NCBI GenBank assembly: GCA_018380885.1
Contig: JAGZSY010000018.1
Coordinates: forward strand, 160,170-224,169
Source of the DNA: Enterocloster asparagiformis
GTDB lineage: Bacteria; Bacillota; Clostridia; Lachnospirales; Lachnospiraceae
Direction: 5' to 3'
Length of the DNA stretch: 64,000 bases
Both the position numbers and the translations under genes were made by a program. The number at the start of each line of letters is the position of its first letter. Positions within the stretch are counted from its first letter, which is position 1. Shown here in pieces: positions 9,624 through 60,460 of this stretch. Below the pieces are notes generated by a model. It was not told the origin of the DNA and did no database searches. It worked only from the letters and a program-made list of their open reading frames with translations.

Positions 9624-9700
9624 AGGCGGGACTGCGGCGTGAGGCTTGCCGCAGCGCGGTGCTTACCCCATCGCCGGACTATGTCCCGGAAAGGAAAAAC

Positions 9701-13103: not shown

Positions 13104-13147
13104 CCGGACGCTGGGCGCCAACGGTTTTTAGAAGGAGGAATTGTTTT

Positions 13148-13375
13148 ATGCTGGAAGAATTGAGAGAGATCATCTGCGAGTATGTGGACGTGGAACCGGA
13201 CCAGGTCACGGAGGAGGCACGGTTCGTGGAGGACCTGGGCTTTAACTCCTACGATTTCATGAGTATGGTCGGGGAAATCGAGGAGCGGTACGACGTAGAG
13301 GTGGAAGAGCGGGAAGTGATCAAGGTGAAAACGGTGGGCGACGCCATTCGGTATATCAAGTCGCTGGCGGAGTAG
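13148..13375 (+). CDS. Acyl carrier protein
   Basis: This 75-residue carrier protein starts at MLEELREIICEYV after GAAGGAGGAATTGTTTT, a strong ribosome-binding site. It has the four-helix acidic pattern and the phosphopantetheine site LGFNSYDFMSM with Ser34; the usual DSL is replaced by NSY. VEVEEREVIKVKTVGDAIRYI is a typical third/fourth-helix segment. It is distinct from a primary-metabolism ACP because it is encoded between condensation and AMP-ligase genes, alongside its own phosphopantetheinyl transferase. It likely carries the acyl intermediate of the cluster. Confidence 0.92.
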   Translation: MLEELREIICEYVDVEPDQVTEEARFVEDLGFNSYDFMSMVGEIEERYDVEVEEREVIKVKTVGDAIRYIKSLAE

Positions 13376-13480
13376 GAGCCGGCGGATAGAGGGCGGCGCA
13401 GGCCGGTTGGATACAACTGCGGCAGCGCTGGGAAACCGGCCGTTTAAACGGCCGCGCCCGGGCGAGGGAGGAGTCAGAAT

Positions 13481-14989
13481 ATGACAGTACGGACAATGAA
13501 GGATATAATCGACTGCAGCGCGCAGTCATACGGGGATCAGGCGGCGTTTCGCTACAAGGTCCGAAAGGAAATTGTGGAGAAAACATACCGGGACCTGAAG
13601 CAGCACAGCGAGGCCTTCAGCCGGGCGCTGGCGGCTCTGGGCCAGTTGGGGAGCCACGCTGCGGTGATCGGCCCCACCAGCTACCAGTGGGTGGTGAGCT
13701 ATTTTGGTATCGCCAACAGCGGCGGAGTGGCGGTGCCGGTGGACGCCGGGCTTCCGGCGGCGGACGTCTGCGAGCTGCTGGAGCGGGCCGACGTGAACGT
13801 GCTGGTCTACGACGAGCTGCGGGCGGATGTGGCGGAGCTTGCCAGGGAGAAATGCCCGGGAATCCGGCACATGGTCTCCATGCAGGCGGAGGAGTCAAAT
13901 GACAGTGTCCTGTCCTTTGCGCGGCTTCTGGCGGATAACAGGGGGAGCTTTGACGTTCAGCCGGACCCGGATAAGCTCTGCGCCATCCTCTTCACCTCGG
14001 GCACCACGGGCAAGAGCAAGGGCGTGATGCTGACCCACCGCAATCTCACCGACAACGCCGCGGGCGTGGATATGGGAATCCCGTCGGGCACGGTGTCCAT
14101 GACCCTGCTTCCCATCCACCACGCCTACTGCTTTACCATGGATATTTTGAAGGGGCTGTACATCGGGCTGACCATCTGCATAAACGACTCCATCATGCAC
14201 GTGGCCCGGAACATGAAGCTGTTTAAGCCGGAGATCGTGCTGCTGGTGCCCATGGTGATCGAGTCCATTTACGCCAAGCTTCAGGAGGCGGGCAAGCTGA
14301 TTCCCAAGAAAATGGCCGCAAAGGCCGCCTTTGGCGGAAACTTAAAAACCGTGTGCAGCGGCGGCGCCTATCTGGACCCGGAGTACGTGGAGAAATTTGC
14401 AGAATACGGGATCACGATTCTCCAGGGCTACGGCATGACGGAGTGTTCCCCTGTGATCAGCACCAACCTGCCCTGGGACAGCCGCAAGGGCTCGGTGGGC
14501 AAGCTTTTGCCCAACTGCCGGGCAAAGGTGGTGGACGAGGAGATTTGGGTTCAGGGGTCCAGCGTGATGATGGGCTACTACAAGATGCCCGAGGAGACGG
14601 CGGCCGCCCTGGAGGACGGCTGGCTGAAAACCGGCGACCTGGGCTACGTGGATGAGGACGGTTTTGTTTACATCACCGGCCGCAAAAAGAATCTGATTAT
14701 CCTGGCCAACGGCGAGAACGTATCGCCCGAGGAGCTGGAGAACCAGCTGAGCCGCAATCCGCTGGTGAAGGAGATTCTGGTGCGGGAGACCGGTCAGGTG
14801 ATTCAGGCGGAGATATTCCCCAATCTGGAGTACGCCGCTAAAAAGCGGGTCCGGGACGTTCCCGCCGCGCTTCAGCAGATTCTGGACAACTTCAACCGGG
14901 ATATGCCGGTGTACAAGCGGATTCACAGCCTGATTGTGCGGGAGACGGAGTTTGAAAAGACGCCGTCGAAGAAGATTAAGCGGTTTTAG
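13481..14989 (+). CDS. AMP-dependent acyl ligase (adenylation enzyme)
   Basis: The 502-residue ANL-superfamily enzyme activates a carboxylic acid with ATP and should load it on the cluster carrier protein. Motifs in order are TSGTTGKSKG (about 172), GYGMTEC (about 316), LKTGDLGYVDEDGFVYITGRKKNLI (about 382-405) and the C-terminal catalytic lysine in KTPSKKIKR. The sequence resembles long-chain acyl ligases (LPIHHAYCFTMDIL region) more than NRPS amino-acid A domains, suggesting a fatty or aromatic acid substrate. The substrate cannot be read reliably. It is the last gene of the cluster, followed by a terminator. Confidence 0.9.
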   Translation: MTVRTMKDIIDCSAQSYGDQAAFRYKVRKEIVEKTYRDLKQHSEAFSRALAALGQLGSHAAVIGPTSYQWVVSYFGIANSGGVAVPVDAGLPAADVCELLERADVNVLVYDELRADVAELAREKCPGIRHMVSMQAEESNDSVLSFARLLADNRGSFDVQPDPDKLCAILFTSGTTGKSKGVMLTHRNLTDNAAGVDMGIPSGTVSMTLLPIHHAYCFTMDILKGLYIGLTICINDSIMHVARNMKLFKPEIVLLVPMVIESIYAKLQEAGKLIPKKMAAKAAFGGNLKTVCSGGAYLDPEYVEKFAEYGITILQGYGMTECSPVISTNLPWDSRKGSVGKLLPNCRAKVVDEEIWVQGSSVMMGYYKMPEETAAALEDGWLKTGDLGYVDEDGFVYITGRKKNLIILANGENVSPEELENQLSRNPLVKEILVRETGQVIQAEIFPNLEYAAKKRVRDVPAALQQILDNFNRDMPVYKRIHSLIVRETEFEKTPSKKIKRF

Positions 14990-15223: not shown

Positions 15224-16036
15224 TTAGCTGGCGATACGGGACATGACCGCTTTTTTAACAGCTTCTTTGCCGTTGTAGGCGCTGCGGGAGAGTTGGGACG
15301 AGAGCTTTTTTTCATCGGTCACGTCAAAATGGACGGGGGCGTGACAGCTTCTTTCTACCAGCGGCGAAAAGATTTTTACGCTGATGCCGAATATGCTGCT
15401 GCAATAAGAGAGAACCTCAACCATGGCTTGCTCGTGCCCCTTTTCTTGGAGGACGACGGCCAGCCGGCCTGTTTTCCAGCCGAGAATATTGGTGGCCAGA
15501 AACGCTACGGCCTCCCAGGGTTTGGCCGTACAGGCCATGATTTGGAGCGCGAGAAGCGCCATCTCGCGATTGATAAACGTTTCTTCCAGATTGACGTCGG
15601 ACGCAATCATATCCCAATCCTGTTCAGCGCGGACAGGTCCGCCCTCAACCGTATCCGCAGCGCCGGGGGCTTCCGGGAAGGTTAATAAGGCATAGGTTCT
15701 GTGCCAGGACCGCACCTTGTCGACCACCTTGTTATTGCTCATTTTCATGATAAGAGGGATGCGCCGGTCCTCCGGACAGGCAAATATGGCATCCAGATGG
15801 TCGAGCAGATACAGCGAAATGTCGTCGCAGAACTCTGCGTATTCGATGCCGGTTGATCGGATACGGCTGCGGTTACGCCTGGTGAGCACAACCGCGTTGC
15901 TGACAAAGGCATAGATGTGGGCAGCCAGTTCGTTATAAAGGCCCGGATCGGCCTTGATTTCATCTCCGGTCAGATTCAGCGCTGCGACGGTGTTTAGAGT
16001 TTCCATAAAGCTTTTTTCAATGACAGCCGTATTCAT
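15224..16036 (-). CDS. Possible sigma-factor-like regulator, divergent from the island
   Basis: This 270-residue soluble helical protein starts at MNTAVIEK, where AGGAGG lies 8 bases upstream; a GTG start at 16054 would lie upstream of this ribosome-binding site. The segment YAEFCDDISLYLLDHLDAIF then MSNNKVVDKVRSWHRT resembles sigma-70 region 2 (polymerase binding and -10 recognition). A second helical part (REMALLALQIMACTAKPWEAVAFLATNILGW) could correspond to region 4. The similarity is weak and by eye, so an unrelated helical protein is possible. It is divergent from the accessory operon beginning at 16269, a common position for a dedicated regulator. Confidence 0.5.
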   Translation of the reverse strand: MNTAVIEKSFMETLNTVAALNLTGDEIKADPGLYNELAAHIYAFVSNAVVLTRRNRSRIRSTGIEYAEFCDDISLYLLDHLDAIFACPEDRRIPLIMKMSNNKVVDKVRSWHRTYALLTFPEAPGAADTVEGGPVRAEQDWDMIASDVNLEETFINREMALLALQIMACTAKPWEAVAFLATNILGWKTGRLAVVLQEKGHEQAMVEVLSYCSSIFGISVKIFSPLVERSCHAPVHFDVTDEKKLSSQLSRSAYNGKEAVKKAVMSRIAS

Positions 16037-16268
16037 ATTGAAGCCCTCCTTCACATATTCTGAGGGGCGCCGGAGCTGATCGCCGTGTGCCGCCCTCTGG
16101 AATGATCTTAATTTGGGGCGGCTAGGGGGGTAAATTGGGCTTGACCGGCTGTTGCTCGGGAATGGAGCGCTTTTGCAGGGGGAGAATGGGGGACAATAGG
16201 GGGATCAGGAGAAAATTTCGGGCGGCTTGGGGGAATTTGAAGCGGTTGTGGGGAAGGAGGCTTTCGAT

Positions 16269-17591
16269 ATGGAGCAGTTAAATTTGACCATTAAAAATTT
16301 GTGGAACTGCATATTTGAAGCCCTGAGGGAATTCGGCGTTGTCCTGGTTGTGGAGGAGCGGGGCCAGGCGGTATATATGATCTATGACGACGCCCCCAAT
16401 ATACCGAATTGTCTCCATATTCTTTTCCCCGAGACTGTTATAAACGCCATCTCGTCAAAATCGAAAACCAATAACCGTTATCTGTTGGACGCCACTGTGG
16501 CGGGACAGCTATTCAAGGGCAGTATCTGCCAGGACCAGCATGGAGCATTGGGCAAATATAAGAAGGTTCTGAAACTGTTTGTCCAGGGGGGCACCAGTGC
16601 GCTGATCGACGAGCGCAGACACATTGAGCGGGTGATCAGGGACAGCGTTTGCGCACATAAATACCGCCAAAAGAAGGGCGTGTCTGCCTACAGAGTCTCG
16701 AAAGCGGAGGCGGAAGCGGGCGCAAGCGATCTGGAAGAGTACTGCAGCGCTGTCACCAATCTGTTGTGCGGGCAGCTTGGGCAGCTGATCGACGGCCTGA
16801 ACCGGCAGCAGAACGCGTGGCTTCTGGGGATTCTGCCGTCGGTCGATAGAAATAACGCCCTCTATCTGTATACGGCGCTGCTGGCCGCAGCGATCTGTGA
16901 AATGACTTATGAGCAGGAGCTTTCCGAGGCCGCCGCCCGAAAGCTGGCCGTACAATTAGAAACGCTGAGGAACCATATTGTAAATTTTCTGAATTTGGCA
17001 TCGGATATGAGGAGCGAGGAAGGACAAAGCGCTTCCGCAGATAAACGGCCGGCCCCCAATCCGTCATATGATAATCTGAATGAGGAGAATGTGGGCAAAA
17101 TTGCGGAGCAGCAGGAGCGAAATCTCCTGAAAGAACGGTTCCAGGTGCTGACGGATACCATTGCCCAGAACGATGACGTCACAGCGGTAATTGACGACCT
17201 GGAGCGGACCTGCAGGAGACTGTCCCTGAAAGCCAGCACTGATTTGGCGGAATACTGGATAAGCAGTTTTGCGGCGCTCACATCGGATGGTACAAGATTT
17301 TCGAAGGGTATATACCTGCGATTGGTGATTATCCATATATCATTGATTATCCGAAGGCTGGAGGGCGAGATCAAAGACCTGGAAGAAAAATTGAGCAGCG
17401 CAAAAAAAATAGATCAGCGCATCGAGTCGCTGCAGCTTGCGCTTGAGGACAAGAAAAAGGATTTGTATTTGTACCGGGGGGATCGCAGGGCGTACGAGCA
17501 GGAACTCGAGAAATTCCAGAACGCCGATTTGAACAGGGAATCCATTATTCGCCTCAATCTTTTGAATCAGCAGGGAGAGAAACGGAATTAA
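16269..17591 (+). CDS. Unrecognised island protein with C-terminal coiled coil
   Basis: Starting at MEQLNLTIKN after GAAGGAGGCTTTCGAT, the product has 440 residues. The first third is a mixed alpha/beta region (FGVVLVVEERGQAVYMIYDDAP, CLHILFPETVINAI). The middle is helical and the last ~70 residues (RRLEGEIKDLEEKLSSAKKIDQRIESLQLALEDKKKDL) are a clear coiled coil. No signal peptide or membrane segment is seen. It is the first gene of the island operon and lies 20 bases before the VirD4-like ATPase. I do not recognise the family; it could be a scaffold for the ATPase. Confidence 0.7.
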   Translation: MEQLNLTIKNLWNCIFEALREFGVVLVVEERGQAVYMIYDDAPNIPNCLHILFPETVINAISSKSKTNNRYLLDATVAGQLFKGSICQDQHGALGKYKKVLKLFVQGGTSALIDERRHIERVIRDSVCAHKYRQKKGVSAYRVSKAEAEAGASDLEEYCSAVTNLLCGQLGQLIDGLNRQQNAWLLGILPSVDRNNALYLYTALLAAAICEMTYEQELSEAAARKLAVQLETLRNHIVNFLNLASDMRSEEGQSASADKRPAPNPSYDNLNEENVGKIAEQQERNLLKERFQVLTDTIAQNDDVTAVIDDLERTCRRLSLKASTDLAEYWISSFAALTSDGTRFSKGIYLRLVIIHISLIIRRLEGEIKDLEEKLSSAKKIDQRIESLQLALEDKKKDLYLYRGDRRAYEQELEKFQNADLNRESIIRLNLLNQQGEKRN

Positions 17592-17611
17592 TTTATATCA
17601 AGGAGAAAACG

Positions 17612-19378
17612 ATGACAATGAATTCTGGATTTGAAAATTTGGAAAGAATCAAGAAAAAATGTCAATGCTTCAACTTAATCACCCACCGGTACGAGCAGCC
17701 TAAAAAAGGAAACAGATACACAGGCGGCGTTCCTCTCTTTTACGATGCGGCCAATCAGAAGGTTTATGTGGATCCGGACGATACCCACACGCTGGTGTAC
17801 GGGGCAACCGGTTCGCTGAAAACCCGTTCTGTCGTCATGCCCACCATCAAGCTGCTGGGGATAGCCGGGGAATCAATGATCATCAACGATGCCAAGGGAG
17901 AGCTGTATTCGCGCCTGGCGGGAGAGCTGTGCGAATTGGGCTATCAGATTGTCGTGATTAATCTGCGGGAACCGTCTGTGGGGAATTGCTGGAATCCGCT
18001 GCATATACCGTATCAGTTTTATAAAAACGGCGATATTGACCGGGCCTGCGAGTTTGTCAACGACATTGCCTGCAACCTGACAAAGGAGGCGTACGCCGCT
18101 CAGGACCCGTTTTGGGACAATTCGGCCGCGGATTTGACCTTTGCTCTCATTCTGCTTTTGTTCAAATATTGTCTGGAACACGATGAACCGGAAAGCGCTG
18201 TCAATATCAGCAACGTGCTGGAGCTGAGGCGGAGGCTGTTTTCACCGGAAAACCACAGAGAACCCAAATTTACAGATATTTGGAAATACGCGGCCAAAGA
18301 TGAATTGATAAACGCCAGCCTGAGCGGGTCCGTATTTGCGCCCAATGACACCAGAAACAGTATTTTAAGTGTGTTTGACCAAAAGATGAGGACCTTCTCA
18401 ATTCAGCCCACCCTGATGGAAATGCTCTCAAATAATGATTTCGACATCGCCCGGATCAGCCAGGAAAAAAGCGCGCTGTTCCTCATCATTCCTGATGAGA
18501 AAACCACCTATCACCGCCTTTGTTCGCTCTTCATCAAGCAGAGCTACGAGTATCTGATTTATATTACGACCCGCAACCAAAACAAGCGAGTTGACAACAG
18601 AGTTAACTACTGTCTGGACGAATTCAGCTCGCTCCCATCGGTCGCGGATTTTCCGGCCATGATTACCGCGGCCCGCTCGCGGGATATCCGTTTCCTGTTG
18701 GTGGTGCAATCGCAGAGCAGTTTGAAAAAGCGCTATGCGGAGGAAGCGGAGACAATCGTTTCAAACTGCGCGAACTGGATTTTCTTTACAAGCCGGGAAT
18801 TGGAGCTGCTGCGGGAGCTTTCGGAGCTGTGCGGCACCCCCAAAAACAGCCATACACCGAATATCTCCACATATGAGCTGCAGCATTTCAGCAAGGAGAA
18901 CCGGGAGGCCCTTGTTCTCTGCGGCAGGTACAAGCCGGCCAAGGTTACGATGCTGGATATCGATAATCCGAATTTCAGCGGCAGGAAATACAGCGTTCTA
19001 AAAATACAAACCTCTGAACGGAAGAAACGAAAGCAGATTACGTTTGATTTCGGTCCCCAGGAAGAAGAGGAACAATTGACGTTCAACCCGTGGGCGTCTC
19101 AGCGCGGCCTGAACGCGGGGATCAATCTGCCCCGGAAAATGGAGGATTGGAAACCTCCGCAGCAGCAAAATGATCTGCCGGAGGACCACGGCGACGACGA
19201 AATTGAAGATATTTTGAAGGATATCAACAAGCGAATTGCGGATATCCACAGTGACGAGCGGAAAAAAGCCGGCGCGGCCGACCTGGAAGCCGCAGAACAT
19301 GGGGAAAGGCTCTCGGGAGCGGACGCGGTCAGAGAACTGATGGACCGGCTGCTCGCGGATCTGGATACACCTGAATAA
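17612..19378 (+). CDS. VirD4/TraG-type P-loop ATPase
   Basis: This 588-residue ATPase belongs to the VirD4/TraG/TraD coupling-protein branch of the HerA-FtsK superfamily. Walker A is GATGSLKT (about residue 63), with Leu where Gly is usual before the Lys. Family segments follow: MIINDAKGELYSRLAGELCELGYQIVVINL, then FWDNSAADLTFALILLLF. Walker B is NYCLDEFSSLP (about 333), followed by ITAARSRDIRFLLVVQSQSSL, the sensor region. Unlike true coupling proteins it has no N-terminal transmembrane pair, and the C-terminus is an acidic tail. No relaxase or pilus genes are nearby, so a role other than conjugation, perhaps moving DNA or protein within the island's system, is likely. Confidence 0.85.
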   Translation: MTMNSGFENLERIKKKCQCFNLITHRYEQPKKGNRYTGGVPLFYDAANQKVYVDPDDTHTLVYGATGSLKTRSVVMPTIKLLGIAGESMIINDAKGELYSRLAGELCELGYQIVVINLREPSVGNCWNPLHIPYQFYKNGDIDRACEFVNDIACNLTKEAYAAQDPFWDNSAADLTFALILLLFKYCLEHDEPESAVNISNVLELRRRLFSPENHREPKFTDIWKYAAKDELINASLSGSVFAPNDTRNSILSVFDQKMRTFSIQPTLMEMLSNNDFDIARISQEKSALFLIIPDEKTTYHRLCSLFIKQSYEYLIYITTRNQNKRVDNRVNYCLDEFSSLPSVADFPAMITAARSRDIRFLLVVQSQSSLKKRYAEEAETIVSNCANWIFFTSRELELLRELSELCGTPKNSHTPNISTYELQHFSKENREALVLCGRYKPAKVTMLDIDNPNFSGRKYSVLKIQTSERKKRKQITFDFGPQEEEEQLTFNPWASQRGLNAGINLPRKMEDWKPPQQQNDLPEDHGDDEIEDILKDINKRIADIHSDERKKAGAADLEAAEHGERLSGADAVRELMDRLLADLDTPE

Positions 19379-19401
19379 AAGGCAAAGGAGGCTGAAGGAG
19401 T

Positions 19402-20456
19402 ATGGAAATAGAACGTGAGGTTGTCCTCGGCGCTGCGGACGGCCCTGATGAAAACATATCCGGCGGGCCGGCTTACTACGAGCTGCCGGTTACAAAGGCC
19501 AATGCGATGGCGTATTATCTGCTGCGGAATATTTATTCAGCGGGAACCGGAGGCGAGGACGATGCGGAAGCACGCGGAGAGCTGATTGCCCTGGTCGATC
19601 GTTTTGCCGGACAGAAAAGCGGTTCCGGCTCGGCCGACGATTTTCACAACTTCGCGGTTGAACTCGCCAGGTTTAACGAGTATGAACTGTCCTGTAAAAT
19701 TGTGGAATTCGGACTAAAATTTTTCCCTAAAAATTGCGATTTGCTGGCCGATTACCTCCGAAGTATTTTAAGATTCTATTCAGTGTGCCTCACCGCAGAT
19801 GGACGTGGCGCAGCTTTTCATTTGTGGTAAACTATCTGCAGTTTCTTGCGGAGCAGAGCGACGGGGAGCGGGTGATCAGCCAGATATTTGACTCGCTGGG
19901 ACAGCCCGTAGCGGGTTTTGAGGAGGCGGGGGTGGAGGAACGGGCGATGCTGTCGGTTGCGGCGGAGTTTAAAAGGTATTTCCCCCACAGCGAGGAACCC
20001 TACCGGGTTGAAGCTCAGATATATACCTATTTAAAGCGGGATGACCTGGCCTTAGAAACGCTGGGCGCTGCGGAGCGGGAGCTTTCGGTATGCCCCAAGT
20101 GTTCACTGCGCCGGGCGGATATGCTGTTTAACCGCGGCGACTATGATGAGGCCGGCCTGTCGGTTCAGAGGGCGCTCAACGGCTCCGTCCAGACGCAGAG
20201 CAGTGTGAACGAGGGCTACCTGCATTATCTTTTGGCGCTGTGCATCTTTGCTGGCAGCAGAAAAAAGGACGCTGTGTTAAACGGCGAGGAGGCAAAGCTG
20301 ATTTACGGCCATTTTAATGATGCCCTGGTGGAATTCGGAGACGATCATCAGAGCTTCAAGGACGTAATCCGGCGAACGGCAAGGAATGTCAAGAGCGAGA
20401 GCCGCGAGGACATCCCTGACGAGTGTGGCTACCTAATTGCTTTGACGGAAGATTAA
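19402..20456 (+). pseudogene. Helical-repeat (TPR-like) protein gene interrupted by a frameshift
   Basis: Two overlapping frames together make one protein. Frame 1 starts at 19402 (MEIEREVVLG, after GGAGG) and encodes helical repeats up to CDLLADYLRSILRFYS, then runs out of frame to a stop at 19828-19830. The second frame carries on at VPHRRWTWRSFSFVVNYLQFL (about 19788) to 20456 with TPR-like pairs (CSLRRADMLFNRGDYDEAGLSVQRAL). No ribosome-binding site explains a separate second start. A single-base indel or short deletion near 19770-19800 would fuse the two to about 350 residues. It may be a true pseudogene, a sequencing error or programmed frameshifting. Function would be scaffolding within the island. 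Confidence 0.65.
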
Positions 20457-20482
20457 AGCGGGACGGCACGGGGAGAAAATCT

Positions 20483-21262
20483 ATGGGAGATACGCTGGCG
20501 AAAGAAAATGTTAAGACGTCTTGTTTTAAAGACGCATTAAACGAGCTGAATAAATCCCTGGCGCTTCGGGAGGAATCAGAGTGCGGCGGGATTTTGGAGG
20601 AATGCAAAAGTGATTTGATCTGGCTGTGGGAGCTGGCGGTTCAACCGGAAGAGAAGCGGCAGTGCATCGATTTAACCGCAATGCTGGGGAATGAAGCCGA
20701 TTGCCACGGACTGCTGTCGCGTTTCGCTTTCACATCCTACGAGGCGAAGGACTACCAAACCGCGAAACATGGTTTTCTGCGTCTGGCGCAAATGGGCAGC
20801 CAGGCGGGGAAGAATAATCTGGCTTATATGGCGCGCAGAGGCGAGGGAGATCACCTCTGGTTTTTCCAGACAGAGGAAATTCTGCGCCTGCTCAAATCCG
20901 GCGTCCAGGAGCGGGAGGTATTTTCTGTCATCAACACGGCGCTGGTATTCGCCCTGCTATTGCAGACGGCGGAAGATTGGAAATTTGCGGACCGGCTGAT
21001 CGCGCTGCTGCAATCTGGAGCGGTATTCGCCGCCAGCTGGTGGTACGATCTGGCCGCCCGGGGGGAGGCGGAGGGCTACCTGGTGCACTGGTGGCTCCTC
21101 AGGCATGGGAAAATGGAGACCAGCCCTCTGGGAACACTTGAGACGCTTTCTGTTAAAGTAAAGTCGTTGTACCCGGATATTCCGGAGGACCTTCTGACCC
21201 CTATACAGACAAAACTGTCCCAGGAACAGGTTGACGCAGAGGATATTGCGGAAGATGAATAA
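20483..21262 (+). CDS. Sel1/TPR-like helical-repeat protein
   Basis: Starting at MGDTLAKEN after GGGGAG, this 259-residue soluble protein is almost wholly helical. CHGLLSRFAFTSYEAKDYQTAKHGFLRLAQMGSQAGKNNLAYMARRGE has the spacing of Sel1/TPR repeats (small residues at A..G and NLA positions). Such proteins mediate protein-protein contacts. It follows the frameshifted repeat gene by 26 bases and is the last gene before a terminator, so the first half of the island (16269-21262) is probably one transcript. The exact partner is unknown. Confidence 0.65.
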   Translation: MGDTLAKENVKTSCFKDALNELNKSLALREESECGGILEECKSDLIWLWELAVQPEEKRQCIDLTAMLGNEADCHGLLSRFAFTSYEAKDYQTAKHGFLRLAQMGSQAGKNNLAYMARRGEGDHLWFFQTEEILRLLKSGVQEREVFSVINTALVFALLLQTAEDWKFADRLIALLQSGAVFAASWWYDLAARGEAEGYLVHWWLLRHGKMETSPLGTLETLSVKVKSLYPDIPEDLLTPIQTKLSQEQVDAEDIAEDE

Positions 21263-21280
21263 AACCCAGGCCCACATAGG

Positions 21281-21318
21281 CCGGAAGATATCTGAAAGGA
21301 TGTCTTCCGGTTTTTTTT
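21281..21318 (+). terminator. Terminator splitting the island into two operons
   Basis: CCGGAAGA (21281-21288) pairs with TCTTCCGG (21303-21310), followed by eight T. The vWA-PP2C-kinase genes start 92 bases later, so they have a separate promoter or depend on read-through. Confidence 0.9.
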
Positions 21319-21409
21319 GCAAAAACGCGGGAGATTTTAGAAAATACAGCGGTGTATAAGGTGTAAGGACTCATAAAAATCAATCAGAACAAAGAGGAGG
21401 AAGAGAGTT

Positions 21410-22129
21410 ATGCGTGATTATAATTTTAATGATACCGAAGCCATTTTCCCGGGGAATATCAACGAAGCCCATATGCCCGTCCTGATTTGCTGCGATATTT
21501 CCGGCAGTATGTGCGGCGTGCCCATTCAGGCCCTGAACCGTTCGGTCAACCGCTTTGCTGCTGATGTGTGTAAAGATTCGCGGGCCGCAGGGTGCGTGGA
21601 TGTGGCGGTGGTGGGATTCAACGAGGCCCCTCATTTGGAGCAGAACTGGCGCCCCATTACAGAGCTTCATCCGGTAGAGTTTTCCGGGGGAGGCGGCACC
21701 AATCTCAGCGCGGCGTTGGAGATGAGCGTTGAAAAGCTGCGCGAGCGCAGTCATCTTTATGAAGATAATGGCATCGAGGTTAAAATGCCCTATCTCATCC
21801 TGATCACCGACGGCTACGGCGGTGATGTGACTGAAATTGCCGAGGACATTAAAAAACGCACGGCCGCCCGGAAGATGAAGCTGTGGATTCTTGCGGTGAA
21901 GGGATACGACAAGGAGACGGTGGCCAAGCTGACAGACGGAAAGCGGGTATTCGAGCTGGTCGATGAAAACGGTTTTGATTTCAGCGAGTTTTTCGATTTT
22001 ATGGCAGTCAGCATCAAGGCTGTTTCAACCAGCGCGCCGGGGCAGGACAACGTGCATATCAAACATAATATCGGCCGCGAGGGCTCGAGCTGCCGTGTCC
22101 CGGATCTCGACGAGTGGTTGAACGACTAG
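21410..22129 (+). CDS. TerY-like von Willebrand factor A domain protein
   Basis: This 239-residue vWA protein carries the metal-ion-dependent adhesion site DISGS (about residues 29-33), GGGGTNLSAAL (the MIDAS threonine) and ILITDGYGGD. TerY-type vWA proteins are cytosolic and occur with PP2C phosphatases and serine/threonine kinases in the TerY-P triad described for tellurite/stress loci. Exactly that order follows here. No terD, terC or other tellurite genes are in the window. AGAGGAGGAAGAGAGTT precedes the ATG. It probably senses or assembles a metal-dependent complex controlled by the kinase/phosphatase pair; this is inference from the family. Confidence 0.88.
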   Translation: MRDYNFNDTEAIFPGNINEAHMPVLICCDISGSMCGVPIQALNRSVNRFAADVCKDSRAAGCVDVAVVGFNEAPHLEQNWRPITELHPVEFSGGGGTNLSAALEMSVEKLRERSHLYEDNGIEVKMPYLILITDGYGGDVTEIAEDIKKRTAARKMKLWILAVKGYDKETVAKLTDGKRVFELVDENGFDFSEFFDFMAVSIKAVSTSAPGQDNVHIKHNIGREGSSCRVPDLDEWLND

Positions 22130-22143
22130 AAGAGGAGGCTGCC

Positions 22144-23604
22144 GTGATTCTTTCCTATCAGGTTTGTATGGCAGGGCCTTATCATATTGAGAACGGCCTG
22201 CCCTGTCAGGATGCGTATGCGGTCCGGGAGGGCGCGGACGGTATGGCAATAGCCGGATGCGCGGATGGGCTTGGCTCCGAATTGTACTCGGACGCGGGCT
22301 CTGAGATTGCGGTCAAAAACGCCGTGGAATATTGCGCCGAAAGGGTCCGACCCTCCATGGAATTTGCCCAGGTGAAGGCGATTATGAACAATGCGTTCGT
22401 ACACGCGTACAAAGCGGTGTTAAATGAGGCGGCGGAAGCGGGAAACAGCGAAGATGAGTATGATACCACCCTGTGTCTGGCAATCTATGACGGCCGCCAT
22501 CTGTACTTTGGCCAGTCCGGCGACAGCGGAATCGTGGCGCTGCTGGAAAACGGCACCTATGTGAAGGTGACGGAACAGCAGCGCGACCAGGACGGCTGCG
22601 TATATCCGCTTTGCTGGGGGCCGGAAAAGTGGGTCTTTGGGGAGCTGGACGAGCCGGTGTCCTCCGTGATGTTGATGAGCGACGGCGTTTTCGAACAAAT
22701 CTGCCCGCCGGCGCTCAAGCGCAGACAGGTCAATATCAATGTCGCTCTGGCGCAGAAATTTTTGGATCAAAACCAATGCGGGGCGGAGAATCTGGAAGCG
22801 CTGGAGAAGGGAATACACGGCTTTTTAGAACATTATCCCAGGAGGCTGTTGGACGATGACAAGACGGTTGTTGTGCTGCTTAACACGGAGAGGCCGGCCG
22901 CCAGAAGGGATGAGGACTATTACAAAGCGCCCGACTGGGAGGCGATTCGGGCGGAGACGAGGAAACGCCTTTATCCGGATGAGGAGGTGACGGCCGCAGG
23001 CGGGGAACCCGCGCCTGAAGCGGCGTTGGAGGAGGCGGAGCAAAAAAAAACTCCGCCCTGGCCCCCCGGGAGGCTTAGTTGGAAAACCCGGATTCCGCTC
23101 TGTGCGCTGATGGTTTTAATCCTCATGGCGGTCAGTATTTTTTCCTGGGCGGCGAGGGACGTCGTCTCGGCCCATGTTCCGGAAAGCTGCCTGGGCGTTT
23201 TGACCGCCTGCTTTTTGGCAAATGCTTCTCTTTTCTTTCCGGCTCCCAGCATTCTGCTGGTAATCCAGTATGCAATGCTGATTGATCCGGCGCCGGTTGT
23301 GCTGTGCGGGGCTCTGGGAGCCTCGCTGGGCGAGATGGTAGGCTTTTTACTGGGAAAATATGGGGGAGGCATGCTTCCCCCAAAAGCGGCGAAACGACTG
23401 CGCTCCATTTTCCCGCGCTACCGGTATCTATGCATTTTTGTGTTTGCCGCTTTGCCGCTGCCGTTATTCGATGTGGTGGGCATTCTGGCCGGAGCCGCGC
23501 GGATGAAAACCGGCAGATTTTTTGCGGTCTGCTTTGCGGGCAAGCTGGTCAAAATGGCGGGGCTGACCTGGCCGGCCGTGGCGGTTTTAAAAATACTGAC
23601 TTGA
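22144..23604 (+). CDS. PP2C phosphatase fused to a VTT/DedA-like membrane domain
   Basis: The GTG start at 22144 is preceded by GAGGAGG. Residues 1-250 form a PP2C-type serine/threonine phosphatase with metal-site motifs GCADGLGS (about 39), GQSGDSG (about 123), LMSDGVFE (about 178) and DDDKTVVVL (about 237). A polar linker (about 255-320) leads to five or so hydrophobic segments resembling VTT/SNARE-associated (DedA-like) proteins: FFPAPSILLVIQ, GALGASLGEMVGFLLGKYGG and FAALPLPLFDVVGILAGAARM. Triad phosphatases are normally soluble, so the fusion would tether dephosphorylation to the membrane. The stop is 17 bases before the kinase start. Phosphatase assignment is firm; the membrane-domain family is likely. 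Confidence 0.85.
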   Translation: MILSYQVCMAGPYHIENGLPCQDAYAVREGADGMAIAGCADGLGSELYSDAGSEIAVKNAVEYCAERVRPSMEFAQVKAIMNNAFVHAYKAVLNEAAEAGNSEDEYDTTLCLAIYDGRHLYFGQSGDSGIVALLENGTYVKVTEQQRDQDGCVYPLCWGPEKWVFGELDEPVSSVMLMSDGVFEQICPPALKRRQVNINVALAQKFLDQNQCGAENLEALEKGIHGFLEHYPRRLLDDDKTVVVLLNTERPAARRDEDYYKAPDWEAIRAETRKRLYPDEEVTAAGGEPAPEAALEEAEQKKTPPWPPGRLSWKTRIPLCALMVLILMAVSIFSWAARDVVSAHVPESCLGVLTACFLANASLFFPAPSILLVIQYAMLIDPAPVVLCGALGASLGEMVGFLLGKYGGGMLPPKAAKRLRSIFPRYRYLCIFVFAALPLPLFDVVGILAGAARMKTGRFFAVCFAGKLVKMAGLTWPAVAVLKILT

Positions 23605-23621
23605 CAAAGGGGAGATGAGGA

Positions 23622-25139
23622 GTGGAGGTCTATACCGTAACCGGGAAACAGCTTGCGCTCAGAGAACCGGCCGTCAGCTCCGGCGGCGAAGGCGCGATCT
23701 ATGAAATTAAGGGCTATCCGGACAGGCTGGTGAAAATTTACCATGATATCGGCGACGCCCGCAAACGCGAGGCAAAAATTGCTGAGATGATAAAAATCAG
23801 CAGGACATCCGGCTTTTGCAGCGCCAATATTGCGCGGGACATCGCATGGCCCAGGTCTCCGATCTACGACAAGGGGCGCCGCTTTATCGGGTTTGGTATG
23901 AACCGCATAGCGGCGGCCACTGAGCTGGATGATTTGTACGCGTATCCGCCCAAGAAAAACGCAGGTGTTACAATCCGCTGGAAAATTAACTGTCTCATCA
24001 GCCTGTGCGATGTGATAGAGCGCCTGCACCGGACGGGCCAGGTGTTCGGAGACTTTAACCCTAACAATATTAAGGTCAGAAGCGACGGAACCATGGGATT
24101 TGTGGATGCCGACTCCTATCATATCATAAGCGGCGGAAGGGAATACCGCTGCGTGGTCTGCGCGCCCGGGTATGTGGCGCCTGAGCTGCTTAAAGCTTGC
24201 AAAGGCACGACCTACGCAGATTGCAGTAAGCCTACGTTTACCAGGGAGACTGATTATTTCGCGCTGGCAATCCATTGCTTTCGGATGCTCATGAACGGCT
24301 GCCATCCGTTTATCTGCGAACGGCATTTGAAAAAAGCAGGCTCAGCTCCTGCGGCCAGGCCAACGGATAAGCGGGTAGAATATGGCGAGACGCCTTTCTT
24401 TAAGAAGATACCCAATTATACCACGCCCCATTATGCGCCGGATATTAATTCATTTCCGCCGTATATCAGAGATTTGTTCCGGCGGGCGTTTGTGGACGGC
24501 CACAACAATCCCGGCGCGCGTCCCACGGCCGGCCAGTGGAAACAGGCGCTGCTCCGGTTTTCCGGCGAGCTGAAAAGCTGCGCGGCCAATCCCGCCCACG
24601 ATTACTGGAGACAGGAGGCCAAATGTCCGTATTGCGAAGCGGACAAACGGCACGCCGCCAAAGCGCTGCCGGCTTCCGCAGCCTCACACAGCGGCGGCCC
24701 GGCGGTTTATACTGCGCGCAATGCCGCTGCGGCAGCTGCACAAAGCCCTAAGATCAGGTTCAACGCCTCCACGGTCTGGTTCTGGGCGGCCACCGTCATT
24801 GGGACTTTGGCCATGCTTGTGTATTTGAAAGAAAATATTCTTCCGCAAATATATTACGCGCTATTTGAAAATCAATCCCTGGTGTCCGTCGGTGTATACG
24901 GCAGTGTGATTTCCGGTCTGGCAGGCAGTATTGTGTATAACGGCTGGTGGACGCCCGGACGGAGGGCGGGCTGCTATGACTGGTGGGAGTACCTGGTGTC
25001 GCCGCTGACCGCCGCGGGCTTTGTCTGCGGTTTTGGCCTGGCGATGTGCGCGGTTCTGATTGTTTTGTATCTTTTCGCCGCCTTTTTAGCCGTTGCGCTT
25101 GTCGTTGGCGCGGTGGCAGCTATGCTCACAGGAGGGTAA
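23622..25139 (+). CDS. Membrane-anchored protein kinase of the TerY-P triad, divergent active site
   Basis: This 505-residue kinase has a glycine-rich loop SSGGEGAIYEI (about 20-30) and a VKIYH lysine strand. The catalytic loop is GDFNPNNIKV (about 143-152), with Gly-Asp-Phe in place of His-Arg-Asp. FVDADSYHI (about 160) replaces the DFG motif, and YVAPELL (about 186) ends the activation segment. The Asp and Asn residues needed for metal and catalysis are kept, so activity is plausible. After residue 320 come a KCPYCEAD cysteine pair, an Ala-rich linker and about three membrane segments. It pairs with the upstream phosphatase, also membrane-anchored. Such non-RD variants are known in TerY-P kinases. 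Confidence 0.85.
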   Translation: MEVYTVTGKQLALREPAVSSGGEGAIYEIKGYPDRLVKIYHDIGDARKREAKIAEMIKISRTSGFCSANIARDIAWPRSPIYDKGRRFIGFGMNRIAAATELDDLYAYPPKKNAGVTIRWKINCLISLCDVIERLHRTGQVFGDFNPNNIKVRSDGTMGFVDADSYHIISGGREYRCVVCAPGYVAPELLKACKGTTYADCSKPTFTRETDYFALAIHCFRMLMNGCHPFICERHLKKAGSAPAARPTDKRVEYGETPFFKKIPNYTTPHYAPDINSFPPYIRDLFRRAFVDGHNNPGARPTAGQWKQALLRFSGELKSCAANPAHDYWRQEAKCPYCEADKRHAAKALPASAASHSGGPAVYTARNAAAAAAQSPKIRFNASTVWFWAATVIGTLAMLVYLKENILPQIYYALFENQSLVSVGVYGSVISGLAGSIVYNGWWTPGRRAGCYDWWEYLVSPLTAAGFVCGFGLAMCAVLIVLYLFAAFLAVALVVGAVAAMLTGG

Positions 25140-25145
25140 GGTCAG

Positions 25146-25427
25146 ATGGAAGCTGAATTGAACGCGTATTTAAAAAAATATTTGGAGTATTCGGACTATG
25201 CCGCGTCGGTCACAGCCCATGATTTATGCGCGGTAAAGCACGGCGATATCCGTTTTGGGTTAATGCGATGGCTCAGGAATCAGGAGACGCCCGACATTCG
25301 TGAGGGCCGGTTTTCAACGGACCTGCTGATGGCGGAATACGGGATGACGTACCCCGCAGCGCTGATTTATGTGGATTGGCTGCGCAGCGATCCGGAAACG
25401 GCCCGCAGCGCCCTTGACAGGGCATGA
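25146..25427 (+). CDS. Small hypothetical island protein, 93 aa
   Basis: A small helical protein (MEAELNAYLKKYLEYSDYAA...) lying 6 bases after the kinase stop, with AGGAGGGTAAGGTCAG as ribosome-binding region. The C-terminal half (STDLLMAEYGMTYPAALIYVDWLRSDPETA) could form a small helix-turn-helix-like bundle. I do not recognise the family. Tight spacing on both sides indicates translation within the triad operon, so it is likely a functional accessory subunit. Confidence 0.6.
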   Translation: MEAELNAYLKKYLEYSDYAASVTAHDLCAVKHGDIRFGLMRWLRNQETPDIREGRFSTDLLMAEYGMTYPAALIYVDWLRSDPETARSALDRA

Positions 25428-25444
25428 GATGAGGAGGTGTCCGG

Positions 25445-26107
25445 ATGACCTATCAGGAAGGGCTTTCCCTGACCGGCCCGGGGTGGGCCGGATTAAGCGA
25501 GGAAGTGAAGCTGGAAGCGCTTCAGGCCATTGAAAACCACATGGCGTTGGAAGGAGGACGGCTGCCATGTCCCGTGAGGGGAGAGTTTTTGTATACCGGT
25601 ATCGATGGCATTGTCATAGGAACCTATGATCCAGGGAAGCGGACTATTTATATTAACTCCTCACAATTTGACGGGGAAGCCAAATATGGGAAAACCCCGG
25701 AAGCGCTGGTCACAGCGTGCCTGCACGAGGGCAGGCATGCATATCAGCACCAGGTGATAAACGGTATGGTGAAACATGACAACGCACAGGAAGCGGAGGA
25801 GTGGAAGGAAAATCTGTCACCCGGTCGCTACATATCATTCCGGCAAAACCCGCGGGCGTACTACAGCCAGCCGGTGGAAGCCGACGCCCGCTCCTTTGCG
25901 GAGGCCCGTTATCAGCAGATGACGGCGGAGCGGGAGCGTATCATTACCTCGGAGCAGATTCACGAAAATCCGGCAAAACAAATTTTTATGGAGCAGATGA
26001 ATGGCCGCGGCAGGGGGGAGGCGGACCGGGCGGCGGATTACCGAAGTAGCGAGGACCGCGCCTGGCAGGATATGAACCAGACGGCGGGACAGGGGAGGTC
26101 GCTATGA
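25445..26107 (+). CDS. Putative HExxH zinc metalloprotease-like protein
   Basis: This 220-residue protein contains LHEGRHAYQHQ (about residues 93-103), an HExxH zinc motif. EADARSFAEARY follows about 50 residues later and could supply the third ligand, as in gluzincins. The N-terminal region has beta strands (GEFLYTGIDGIVIGTYDPGKRTIYINSS). No signal peptide is present, so it would act in the cytosol or as an effector. AGGAGG precedes the start and the stop overlaps the next gene by 4 bases (ATGA). It could be a regulated protease or toxin-like effector of the island; that is inference. Confidence 0.65.
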   Translation: MTYQEGLSLTGPGWAGLSEEVKLEALQAIENHMALEGGRLPCPVRGEFLYTGIDGIVIGTYDPGKRTIYINSSQFDGEAKYGKTPEALVTACLHEGRHAYQHQVINGMVKHDNAQEAEEWKENLSPGRYISFRQNPRAYYSQPVEADARSFAEARYQQMTAERERIITSEQIHENPAKQIFMEQMNGRGRGEADRAADYRSSEDRAWQDMNQTAGQGRSL

Positions 26108-27417
26108 TTGCGCGCAATACGTTATTGTGCGGCAGCGCCCTTGACGCAAATCCGGTGCCGGTCCTGCCCTGCGCTCCCTTTGTGTCCTTTCCCGGTTTTC
26201 ATAATGGCGTGAATGCCAGGCTCGGCCTTTCAGAGGAACATTTTACCACGCACTGCCTCCTGGCCGGGGCCACGGGAGCCGGAAAAACGAACGCGTTAAA
26301 GTTTATGCTGGCGCAGTTGATTTCCCATATGACTGTCAATGACAGTATGCTGGTCTTTGACTCCAAGCTCGACTTTACATCCAATCACCGCGTGGGAGAT
26401 ATGGTGATCTCCAATTGCTCCCCCACGGAGCATGTTTGGAATATCTTTATGGACGTCGTGGCGGACGGGTGGGAGGAAAAGCCGGTGGCCCTCAACGCGG
26501 ACGAGATTTCGGAAGTGATATTTTCGGATGCGGTCCGCGCCGGCTCACAGCCCTTTTTCCCCAAAGCGGCCAGGGATATCTTCTCCGCGGTTGTCCAGGC
26601 CATGACCCGATTGGGAGCCGGGGACAGTCAGTACCGCCGGGAGTTTCTTAACAACCGCGCGCTGAGGGAATACCTGTCCATGCTGGACGCAAAGCGTCTG
26701 TGCGAATTTTTGGGCCGGTTTGCGGGACTATCGGGCGTGTTAAAATATGTGGGAAACGGCCAGTCGGATCAGGCGCTGGGGGTGTTCGCCGAATTGCAGT
26801 CCGTGATAAACCGTGTTTTGTCAAGAAATTATGGGGAGGACGGAAGATTTTCCATGCGGAAGGCCGTGCAGGACCGAAAGGGCCGGATCGTGTTTATCGA
26901 ATATGATCCGTCGTGCGGTAAATCACTCCAGCCTGTTTATCAGGTTCTGGTGGATTTGTATTTAAAGGAGGCGCTGTCGCCCCGCCGCGGGGGAACGGGC
27001 CGCGTGTATGTGGTTTGCGACGAGCTGAAAATGCTGCCGCATTTAAACCATTTTGAGAACGCCCTCAATTTCGGCCGGTCGCTGGGAGTCTCCGTGATTG
27101 CCGGTATCCAGTCCATGGAACAGCTCTATGAAGTGTACGGCGAGCACGGGGGAAAAAACATAGCGGCGGCCTTTCAGACCGTGTTTTGCTTCCGCACAAA
27201 TGACGGGGCCACCAGAGAATATATTCAGGGTATTTTTGGAAAAAATTGTTCGGTGCTGCAATACTTAACGCCCTCCGGTAAAACAGCGGAGGAGAAAATA
27301 ACGGGAAATTGCGTTGAGGATTGGGATTTCGCCGAGCTAAAGCGCGGGGAGGCCATAGTTGGCATACCCTATGAAAAGCCGTTTAAGTTCCAGTTTAACC
27401 AATACAGCAGGAGGTGA
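26104..27417 (+). CDS. VirD4/HerA-type P-loop ATPase
   Basis: This 437-residue ATPase has Walker A GATGAGKT (about residues 54-61) followed by a helix and MLVFDSKLDF. Walker B is VYVVCDELKMLPH (about 303), followed by the family segment GRSLGVSVIAGIQSMEQLYEVYG. It belongs to the same HerA-FtsK superfamily as the ATPase at 17612 but is not a close copy. It has no transmembrane segment and no fused nuclease. It is coupled to the HExxH gene by a 4-base overlap and precedes an apparent ATPase-dead relative. The lack of any relaxase, VirB4 or pilus gene argues against conjugation. Confidence 0.85.
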   Translation: MIARNTLLCGSALDANPVPVLPCAPFVSFPGFHNGVNARLGLSEEHFTTHCLLAGATGAGKTNALKFMLAQLISHMTVNDSMLVFDSKLDFTSNHRVGDMVISNCSPTEHVWNIFMDVVADGWEEKPVALNADEISEVIFSDAVRAGSQPFFPKAARDIFSAVVQAMTRLGAGDSQYRREFLNNRALREYLSMLDAKRLCEFLGRFAGLSGVLKYVGNGQSDQALGVFAELQSVINRVLSRNYGEDGRFSMRKAVQDRKGRIVFIEYDPSCGKSLQPVYQVLVDLYLKEALSPRRGGTGRVYVVCDELKMLPHLNHFENALNFGRSLGVSVIAGIQSMEQLYEVYGEHGGKNIAAAFQTVFCFRTNDGATREYIQGIFGKNCSVLQYLTPSGKTAEEKITGNCVEDWDFAELKRGEAIVGIPYEKPFKFQFNQYSRR

Positions 27418-27421
27418 TGAT

Positions 27422-28702
27422 ATGGGCCGGGCAATGAATACGGCGGCCGCGGTGACCGCGGCCGTGGTCAATCGTTCTGCTCAAAAGAAAGCAAGGCGCA
27501 GGGCTGATAAAATCAATCAGGCGAACAGGAATGTGGCGAACCTGGGAAGAGTTTTTTCCGACCAGTTGATCCCCTGTAATACCCAAATGGGGAATATCTG
27601 TATATCGGGCGGAACAGATCAGGTGCGGGCCGCGCTGTTGGTGCAAAATTGCCGCCAGAGCGTTTCAATCGGTGTTCCCACGATTATCCTGCATGAGGGA
27701 AACTCAGCTTTGGAACAGGCTCTGCGGCAGAACTTTTCAGGACACCGCTATATGCGCATTGTCAACCGCTCCGATCCATATTATGAGCCGGTATTCCGGC
27801 TGTCGGACGATGGGCTCGCCAGGCTGATTGTGGAGGCATCGCTGCCTGAACAGCGCATTGGACCGGCGGGAATGCCGTACCTGAAAGCGGTCTCCCTGAT
27901 TTTGCGAAAAAAGGGGATCACGCCCTATATTCGGATGCTGGCCAGCTGCCCTCATCACGCGCTGGCCGGACTCATACTGCAGTTAGAGTCTGCCGGCGTG
28001 ATTGAGGAGCGGGTCTCGGATTCCATGCGAAACGATATAGAGGCAGGGAGCGCGGCCTTGCCGGCCGTAAAGTGCTTTTTCAGCCAGCTCGATCTGGAAT
28101 CCGATATCCTGGCATGGAAGAGCAGGCTTTCCCGCTGCACGTCCATTGCCGAGTGCATTAAAATGAATGGAATCCTGTGCCTGGATCTGACGTCCTGTGC
28201 AAAAAAGGCGCAGATGTCCCTGATTGCGGCGGAAATTGAAGAGAGCTCCAAAGCCGGAGTCCCCTTTCGGATTATCATCGACGCTGTTTCAATCGCTGAA
28301 AATGAAAAGCTGGTCAAGGCTTTGAAAACAGCCTCCGGCTCTCTCGCATGGACCATTTCCTGTCCTGATCTGAACAGAATGACGGGAGCGGCCCCGGGGG
28401 AGCTGGCGGCATGGCTGGCGCTGTCCCACCGGGCGGTGCTGTTTTCCCACGGCGTCCAAGCGTGCAGGCTTTTGTCCGCTGAATTGGGGGAATACGATCA
28501 TATTGACGTGGTTCAGTCCCAGGCGGGAAACAGCAGCATAGGTCAATTGGGATTTCACTTCGGTACAAACGCAGGGCTCAGCACTTCGAACAAGCGGGAG
28601 CGGGTGTTCAAGCCCGAGGATATTGAGGGACTTGCGGATAAAGAGTTTATTCTGCTGGACAATTATAACGCTTCTCTTGGCCGCGGCGTTCTGACTGTGT
28701 AA
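27422..28702 (+). CDS. Probable inactive VirD4/HerA-like ATPase paralogue
   Basis: Starting at MGRAMNT after GGAGGTGAT, this 426-residue protein has a basic N-terminus (KKARRRADK) and the overall order of its upstream neighbour. ICISGGTDQVRAALL stands where a P-loop would be but lacks GxxxxGK. FRIIIDAVSIAENEKLVKALKTA resembles a Walker B strand and following helix without the Glu. The C-terminal RVFKPEDIEGLADKEFILLDN matches the strand order near the end of VirD4 proteins. I infer a pseudo-ATPase that may form mixed rings with the active ATPase encoded 5 bases upstream. The homology is by pattern only and needs structural comparison. Confidence 0.5.
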   Translation: MGRAMNTAAAVTAAVVNRSAQKKARRRADKINQANRNVANLGRVFSDQLIPCNTQMGNICISGGTDQVRAALLVQNCRQSVSIGVPTIILHEGNSALEQALRQNFSGHRYMRIVNRSDPYYEPVFRLSDDGLARLIVEASLPEQRIGPAGMPYLKAVSLILRKKGITPYIRMLASCPHHALAGLILQLESAGVIEERVSDSMRNDIEAGSAALPAVKCFFSQLDLESDILAWKSRLSRCTSIAECIKMNGILCLDLTSCAKKAQMSLIAAEIEESSKAGVPFRIIIDAVSIAENEKLVKALKTASGSLAWTISCPDLNRMTGAAPGELAAWLALSHRAVLFSHGVQACRLLSAELGEYDHIDVVQSQAGNSSIGQLGFHFGTNAGLSTSNKRERVFKPEDIEGLADKEFILLDNYNASLGRGVLTV

Positions 28703-28714
28703 AGGGGGCGGGCT

Positions 28715-29740
28715 TTGTTGGATCTGAGTCGTTCTATTTCAAACAGTCAATACCGTTATTATTTCGGCCTGCTGAAGCCGGAACAGAGGCGCTGCTATGA
28801 GACGCTGCTATCGGGGTATATGCGTCACAGGGAGAAAATCGTGGTTCACGCTTCATGCATTGAGGAAGTGTGGGAGGTTCAAAGGAGCCTCTGCTATGAT
28901 GTCCCGGAGCTGTTTTTTATTAAAACGGTGAGAGCGGACCGCAATCCTGTTCTGAATACGGTGACTGTGATACCTGAGTACCGCTTTAAAAAAGAAGTCT
29001 GCGTCAATATCCTGGACGAGATGGAAGCCGCTGCCTCGGCGCTCCTGCAAAGGATCGCCATGCTTCCGGAATACGGCCGCGTAAAGCAGATTCATGATTA
29101 CCTGTCCAGAACCGTGAAATACAGAGACCTTCAGGCGCCCTACAGCCACGAGGCTCCCGGTGCGCTGATCTATCATATTTCTGTGTGCGAGGGCATTGCG
29201 AAGGCGTTCAAATATTTGGCGGACCGCAGTGGACTTAAGGCCGTGGTGGTGACAGGGGATTCGCGGGACATGGCCGGTGAGGCGGAGGGCGGGACCGGCC
29301 ATGCGTGGAACGTTATCGAGGTGGATTCGCAGAATTATCATATAGACGTTACCTTTGACGCGGGTCTCTCCCAAAACGGCACCTTGCGCTACGACTATTT
29401 CCTTCTCTCGGACGAGCAGATTCGGGGAGATCACACCTGTGACGAAAGTCCGCGCTGCGGGCGCAGCTATGAGTACTATCAGGAGTGCGGCTGTTACGTG
29501 GATTCAAAGCGCACCCTGCGGGAGCTGGTGAAGGCCAGGCTCCGGCCAAAAGCGCCCCTGGTTTTCAAGCTCCCCGACTTTGAACCGGCCGGGAGAGCGG
29601 GGGTTCCTGAGATGGTATTGGGAACAGTCTCCCAGGCGGTGGCAGTTCCTTATGCGCTTTGCACGAATGTTTCCCTGGACTGTAACCTGAACAGAATGAT
29701 CTTTCTGGCGGAGCTGTCGGGCCCCTCGCGGCAGGATTAA
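28715..29740 (+). CDS. Transglutaminase-like cysteine protease-fold protein
   Basis: This 341-residue protein holds the papain-like transglutaminase core: nucleophile Cys in VCEGIAKAFKYLAD (about 157), His in GTGHAWNVIEVD (about 195) and Asp in HIDVTFDAG (about 210). The preceding RVKQIHDYLSRTVKYRD is the usual family lead-in. The start is a TTG at 28715 after GGGGGCGGGC. No signal peptide is seen, in contrast to many secreted bacterial transglutaminase-like proteins. It is the last gene of the island. It could be a peptidase, amidase or cross-linker acting on island proteins; no substrate can be named. Confidence 0.8.
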   Translation: MLDLSRSISNSQYRYYFGLLKPEQRRCYETLLSGYMRHREKIVVHASCIEEVWEVQRSLCYDVPELFFIKTVRADRNPVLNTVTVIPEYRFKKEVCVNILDEMEAAASALLQRIAMLPEYGRVKQIHDYLSRTVKYRDLQAPYSHEAPGALIYHISVCEGIAKAFKYLADRSGLKAVVVTGDSRDMAGEAEGGTGHAWNVIEVDSQNYHIDVTFDAGLSQNGTLRYDYFLLSDEQIRGDHTCDESPRCGRSYEYYQECGCYVDSKRTLRELVKARLRPKAPLVFKLPDFEPAGRAGVPEMVLGTVSQAVAVPYALCTNVSLDCNLNRMIFLAELSGPSRQD

Positions 29741-60456: not shown

Positions 60457-60460
60457 TTGC

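Follow-up and report, generated by a model that had tools for sequence, protein, structure and literature searches.

Triads of a vWA protein, a PP2C phosphatase and a kinase, termed TerY-P, are known switches, and what they switch is, to our knowledge, mostly unknown. The available text of one account places them with restriction systems and in stand-alone antiphage modules, occurring either alone or with Type II and III-A CoCoNuTs; EssC-like and VirB4-like ATPases of the FtsK/HerA class can occur among the vWA genes, and the TerY-P kinase is described with a C-terminal fusion to a zinc ribbon or OB-fold (PMC11090510). According to the available part of a commentary, TerY-P is active against T7-like phages (PMC7699616). 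In the GTPase-centred GAP1-N2 conflict systems, as far as the account at hand extends, one theme combines a kinase (with a zinc ribbon or transmembrane segments), a PP2C phosphatase and a vWA protein, and another has tubulin genes (PMC7159879). Toxin delivery systems are covered in a further paper, the available part of which names no VirD4 route (PMC3482391). Described here is a gene island, carried by gut bacteria, that joins such a triad to a coupling-protein-type ATPase, in a 64,000-nucleotide stretch of Enterocloster asparagiformis (Lachnospiraceae; GCA_018380885.1, contig JAGZSY010000018.1, positions 160,170-224,169 of the forward strand), the whole of which is called the window and supplies all positions given below. 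The segment examined (15224-29740) holds genes A to L, of which the last eight, E to L, recur together in other genomes. With a probability of about 0.4, E to L is a phosphorylation-gated, ATP-driven protein-handling machine with a role in conflict with phages or competitors.

The conserved run E to L

E to L follow one another as one tight run (21410-29740) with intergenic spacings of -16 to +17 bases.

E, 21410-22129, + strand: vWA protein (VWA_2 4.5e-07); metal-ion-dependent adhesion site residues DISGS, T and TDG
F, 22114-23604, + strand: PP2C phosphatase (PP2C_2 6.8e-26) fused to a VTT membrane domain (VTT_dom 5.3e-11); transmembrane-like segments
G, 23622-25139, + strand: divergent Ser/Thr-type kinase (Pkinase 4.1e-07); C-terminal transmembrane-like segments
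H, 25146-25427, + strand: small protein (93 residues) of unknown family, conserved 5' of I
I, 25445-26107, + strand: predicted zinc peptidase with HExxHxxQ and E145; disordered tail
J, 26104-27417, + strand: TrwB-type ATPase (TrwB_AAD_bind 1.3e-36); Walker motifs intact in the alignment
K, 27422-28702, + strand: predicted pseudo-ATPase of TrwB fold; Walker residues lost
L, 28715-29740, + strand: transglutaminase-like protein (Transglut_core 9.2e-07); C, H, D triad

The vWA, PP2C and kinase genes, with their catalytic motifs, stand in direct succession here, as in the TerY-P triad, and inspection of the sequences by eye finds the catalytic motifs of E, F, G, J and L with their residues in place. 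The Pkinase score of G, 30.1 bits, lies slightly under the cut-off of 31.7; the protein has one CxxC pair (by eye) followed by the transmembrane-like segments, and no Pfam zinc-ribbon or OB match.

A genome scan with the K alignment yielded nine loci, from Oscillospiraceae, Lachnospiraceae, Ruthenibacterium, Olsenella and Murdochiella, and all nine hold the triad together with J, K and L. The window's order of E to L is kept in five (L001, L002, L003, L006 and L008), and the same families are rearranged in the other four (L004, L005, L007 and L009), the vWA gene of L009 being split. Searches with J in four orders matched 5 of 394, 13 of 392, 6 of 297 and 5 of 199 genomes (centre genomes included; E <= 1e-30 in the first order and 1e-25 in the other three), and a search within one genus matched 2 of 31 genomes; the distribution of J is patchy and accessory. 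The counts that follow cover 31 loci with full-length J, leaving aside two that repeat L001 (L062, L066), three in which J is truncated or broken (L063, L064, L065) and short copies of the same hits (L010-L039, L067). Across these 31 loci the triad is found in 11, K in 19, L in 11, I in 13, H in seven, and C and D in two (L001 and L002 only). The triad genes are together in every one of the 11 triad loci, accompanied by K in 11 of 11 and by L in 10 of 11, and in the wider J family I and K often recur where the triad is absent. In the J tree the window and six same-order loci (L054 included) form a clade with support of 100/99 that joins Bacillota and Actinomycetota; the other triad loci are intermixed with J-K loci in a neighbouring branch, and the twelve J-only loci cluster in a group that also takes in L042, a J-K locus, and two plasmid rows.

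Because the same gene set and order recur in two phyla, the association is more than chance, and it is near certain that E to L is a real conserved module whose eight genes stay together. The first-pass annotation of this DNA, made from its letters, had described the triad in direct succession, an HExxH protein and a transglutaminase-like protein, all of which are borne out by the family matches and motifs of E, F, G, I and L, and its proposal that a triad and coupling-type ATPases belong to one gene set, conserved outside conjugation, agrees with the counts above. It had also taken twelve genes as one system, and here the co-occurrence data part from it, since A to D are separate and poorly conserved.

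Shorter and differently headed forms exist. A triad-free H-I-J-K set follows two tubulin-like genes in L057 (one Tubulin_2, 1.4e-53; the second by eye), where the interval 533-12318 also has a kinase-like open reading frame (ORF; no Pfam match) before H-I-J-K and a zinc-ribbon-like protein after it. L058 has I-J-K without the triad, alongside which an H-like gene and an integrase were identified by eye. In L006 and L008 FHA proteins are encoded 3' of L, and L054 also has a relative, an arrangement compatible with phosphothreonine signalling.

ATPase J, predicted pseudo-ATPase K and the gene 5' of J

No transmembrane segment is predicted in J, and its match to mad8 (5.7e-16) reflects a broad resemblance to TrwB/HerA proteins. 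K is predicted to fold like TrwB over most of its chain, with GGTxxxR at the P-loop position and a Walker B Asp that is not followed by Glu (positions equated through predicted secondary structure), and 12 positions are invariant across 19 diverse rows of its alignment. K is thus predicted to be a degenerate TrwB fold and a pseudo-ATPase, which gives a name, pseudo-TrwB, to a hitherto unannotated family. Two VirD4/HerA-class ATPases had been proposed for the island; family matches uphold both, B and J, and it is the count that changes, K being a third, earlier unrecognised protein of predicted ATPase fold.

Next to J-only relatives in L040, L046, L050, L060 and L061, and likewise on large plasmids typed non-mobilizable (L068, L069), inspection by eye finds zinc-ribbon and PH-like membrane proteins (the Paenibacillus one is annotated as a zinc ribbon). 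On a haloarchaeal plasmid (L072:5093-7173) a J-like protein overlaps an annotated relaxase, so that some members of the wider family may transport DNA.

The predicted peptidase I matches no family above cut-off; its motif was assigned from alignments, and 80 relatives were found in the database. The model built from 54 sequences (mean predicted confidence, pLDDT, 86.4) has a confident domain that holds HExxHxxQ and E145 and a tail that is disordered from residue 194, and its structural neighbours are weak (SPRTN-type, 7.2; IrrE-type, 7.0). Relatives of I lie directly 5' of J in 13 of the 31 loci. The product of the gene in this position varies in fold among loci and is elsewhere often a low-complexity protein: in L009 (7571-8610) a GHH nuclease gene directly precedes J and is overlapped by the preceding SUKH immunity gene; in L004, L005 and L007 the position is held by a 69-residue membrane-like protein, with genes for 64-65 and 137 residues upstream; and in L043 the 5' neighbour of J encodes 71 residues.

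Several of these products end, on a disordered tail, in Gly, a hydrophobic residue and zero to three further residues; the L009 protein and the unrelated L047 protein both end in GISR. Counted by family, the pattern is present in 8 of 17, or 7 of 16 outside I, where shuffled tails average 0.99 and 0.89 and never attain the count in 5000 shuffles; the background rate is 44 of 544 other ORFs of the loci. For I itself the pattern is found in 7 of 14 at the loci, counting L054 and the window, both of which fail, and in 50 of 80 database relatives or, once these are thinned to 75% identity, in 13 of 27, against 1.5 for shuffled tails. We hypothesise that the ending is a short C-terminal tag. Weighing against this, the pattern was picked post hoc, after the tails had been looked at, 14 of 41 K relatives also meet it, and in some overlapping genes it may stem from the ribosome site of J.

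Upstream unit and surroundings

Upstream of E lie a second set of genes, a hairpin and a divergent ORF.

Divergent ORF, 15224-16054: no Pfam match; at most a putative member of the island
A, 16269-17591, + strand: protein of unknown family; no Pfam match above cut-off; possible TTG start at 16227; not core
B, 17612-19378, + strand: VirD4-type ATPase (NF045973 and T4SS-DNA_transf matches)
C, 19402-20456, + strand: TPR-like protein, split here into two overlapping frames (19402-19830 and 19734-20456)
D, 20483-21262, + strand: helical-repeat-like protein, last gene of the upstream unit
Hairpin, 21278-21313, + strand: terminator-like, with 16 pairs and a T run; separates the two units

The hairpin lies in the 147-base gap between D and E and has the longest stem of the 24 sites listed between 15 and 31 kb, against 18.5 sites expected from shuffling; because of it, and of the tight spacing of E to L, A to D and E to L are read as two transcription units. 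A finds a 99% copy of itself as its sole database match and has no relative in any of nine genomes. B scores 264.2 bits against NF045973, the NCBI CD1115 conjugal VirD4 family (cut-off 250), and 5.3e-41 against T4SS-DNA_transf; its P-loop is odd (GATGSLKT), a feature common to its L001 relative, and no transmembrane segment is predicted. C is a single ORF in L001 and L002. Since A lacks relatives elsewhere and C and D occur in two of the 31 loci, A to D appears from gene content to be a separate, poorly conserved unit and not the core of the system; locus flanks extend about 10 kb, and the absence of upstream genes such as B, C and D in part reflects this limit. The helical-repeat scaffolds proposed earlier are recognisable in C and D, outside the core unit, and the reported lack of relaxase and VirB4 holds for the 29 window ORFs scanned, among which neither family was found.

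G+C content is 0.49-0.57 across 15-30 kb, compared with about 0.58-0.63 at 10-15 and 30-34 kb, the nearest flanks, and no tRNA was found within the window. Those flanking genes that were scanned have a chromosomal appearance: the island is preceded by condensation and AMP-binding enzymes and followed by an iron hydrogenase, and a penicillin-binding protein and a peptide ABC transporter lie farther out. The former pair (11694-14989), a stand-alone condensation-domain protein and then an AMP-binding enzyme, is perhaps a small pathway of nonribosomal peptide synthetase type, and the hydrogenase is a single 689-residue ORF (30911-32980) fused with rubredoxin-like and rubrerythrin domains. A separate mobile island of low G+C (0.40-0.48) occupies 58900-64000 and includes a phage-type integrase fused to a helix-turn-helix domain (58900-60291).

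Proposed mechanism, alternatives and known systems

In the proposed mechanism J, a cytoplasmic ATPase of the coupling-protein class, would partner with K, predicted to be catalytically dead, and the two would jointly bind a protein client and thread it. In most cases this client would be encoded immediately 5' of J (in this locus it would be I), and it would perhaps be recognised via a short C-terminal tag on its disordered tail. Switching the machine on and off would fall to the kinase G and the phosphatase F, both membrane-linked, with E, the vWA protein, serving as adaptor, and L might process or crosslink the target or client; conflict with phages or competitors would be the likeliest biological role.

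Neighbouring genes bear on what the machine handles. Around the 11 triad loci 69 of 74 listed ORFs were scanned (of the remaining five, the N-terminal ones of L003 and L008 were scanned with slightly shorter coordinates and three were left out), and the families listed are 25 of the 62 matched. Those with at least two members are Sel1, FHA, ClpP, DUF6273, integrase, RyR, M50, transposase, Helicase_C and YbjN, with two each for ClpP and M50; none of them is a nuclease or methylase. YbjN-type proteins, of a family that by Pfam naming includes peptide-binding chaperones, are encoded in L001 and L003. L001 and L002 each carry a second VirD4-type gene as part of a run that also encodes ClpP (3.2e-62 and 1.4e-64) and an M50 peptidase, possibly a separate coupling-ATPase/peptidase module, and close to the second VirD4 gene of L002 and of L003 there is an HExxH relative of I. 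The run of L001 (12872-20994) also has an SNF2-like helicase, and that of L002 (12763-18124) a membrane HExxH relative of I.

An unlikely alternative, though the best surviving, is a DNA-handling defence in which J/K would act as a HerA-like translocase on foreign DNA, the triad as its switch and I and L as abortive effectors. The enzyme adjoining J is, however, a predicted peptidase in 13 of 31 loci, and protein handling is favoured over DNA handling because of this peptidase theme and the lack of nuclease and methylase families among those recurring in the neighbourhood; between the nucleic-acid and protein handling named side by side in the first-pass annotation, gene context leans to protein.

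Somewhat less likely again is export, with J/K driving, from the cytoplasm, an unrecognised secretion route by which effectors such as I and the GHH nuclease would reach neighbouring cells. The SUKH immunity gene and GHH nuclease toxin domain before J in L009, the resemblance in principle of the C-terminal tails to secretion tags, the membrane proteins F and G and the 69-residue membrane-like protein before J in three loci would suit such a route, but the loci have no recognised conserved component of a channel, a pilus or the cell wall, J has no predicted transmembrane anchor, and a recognised toxin/immunity pair precedes J in one of the 31 loci, as far as scanned.

That coupling ATPases were left behind in a decayed integrative and conjugative element (ICE) or plasmid after loss of relaxase and VirB4, already a weak idea for E to L, is most improbable: although B passes the cut-off of a conjugal VirD4 family, G+C is below that of the nearest flanks, an integrase and a relaxase-like 153-residue fragment (assigned by motif) lie near L043 and an integrase lies beside I-J-K in L058, the gene set recurs in two phyla, K holds its invariant positions over diverse rows, and the 69 neighbours include one relaxase and two integrase matches among the families listed (a lone VirB4 match could be hidden), so that a freshly decayed ICE, the outcome that the first-pass annotation had set against its own proposal, is disfavoured for E to L.

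The protein-handling reading has a broader form, which we regard as improbable: an ex-conjugation coupling ATPase with a dead subunit, gated by phosphorylation, would read a C-terminal tag on peptidase or nuclease clients, the clients being swapped 5' of J and the front ends (triad or tubulin pair) and accessory peptidases exchanged independently. What the locus offers in any case is a triad whose gene order ties it, in both phyla, to a single ATPase/pseudo-ATPase pair and to a predicted zinc peptidase, in a small and testable gene set (E to L, or H to K in the shortest forms). If J/K does handle protein clients without a secretion system, coupling proteins would have gained a further role as protein machines, and the exchanged genes 5' of J would be a route to new effectors.

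No description of the J/K pair with peptidase I and L was found in the available portions of the literature searched. MADS is associated with a DNA methylase, and A to L gave no methylase Pfam match. With TrwB/VirD4 type IV coupling proteins J and B share fold and Walker motifs, and they differ in having no predicted transmembrane anchor and no type IV secretion genes recognised around them. The likeness to TerY-P and CoCoNuT systems, as far as the available accounts describe them, lies in the vWA, PP2C and kinase genes side by side and in FtsK/HerA-class ATPases near vWA genes, whereas here the ATPase is of TrwB type with a partner predicted to be dead and stands with a predicted zinc peptidase and a transglutaminase-like protein, and the kinase has transmembrane segments and one CxxC pair; the McrB-like GTPase, helicase CnuH and nuclease CnuE of CoCoNuTs had no Pfam match in A to L and the flanking proteins scanned. 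GAP1-N2 systems share the kinase/PP2C/vWA theme and the tubulin genes, as seen before H-I-J-K in L057, but the J/K pair and peptidase I are not described for them in the available part of the source (PMC7159879), and of their core, a GTPase and GAP1, no GTPase Pfam match was obtained in A to L. The HerA-effector antiphage complexes known from PDB titles (SIR2-HerA, DUF4297-HerA) likewise pair a ring ATPase of the same superfamily with an enzyme encoded alongside it, and in the present locus that enzyme is a predicted peptidase, joined by a second ATPase predicted to be dead and a phosphorylation triad.
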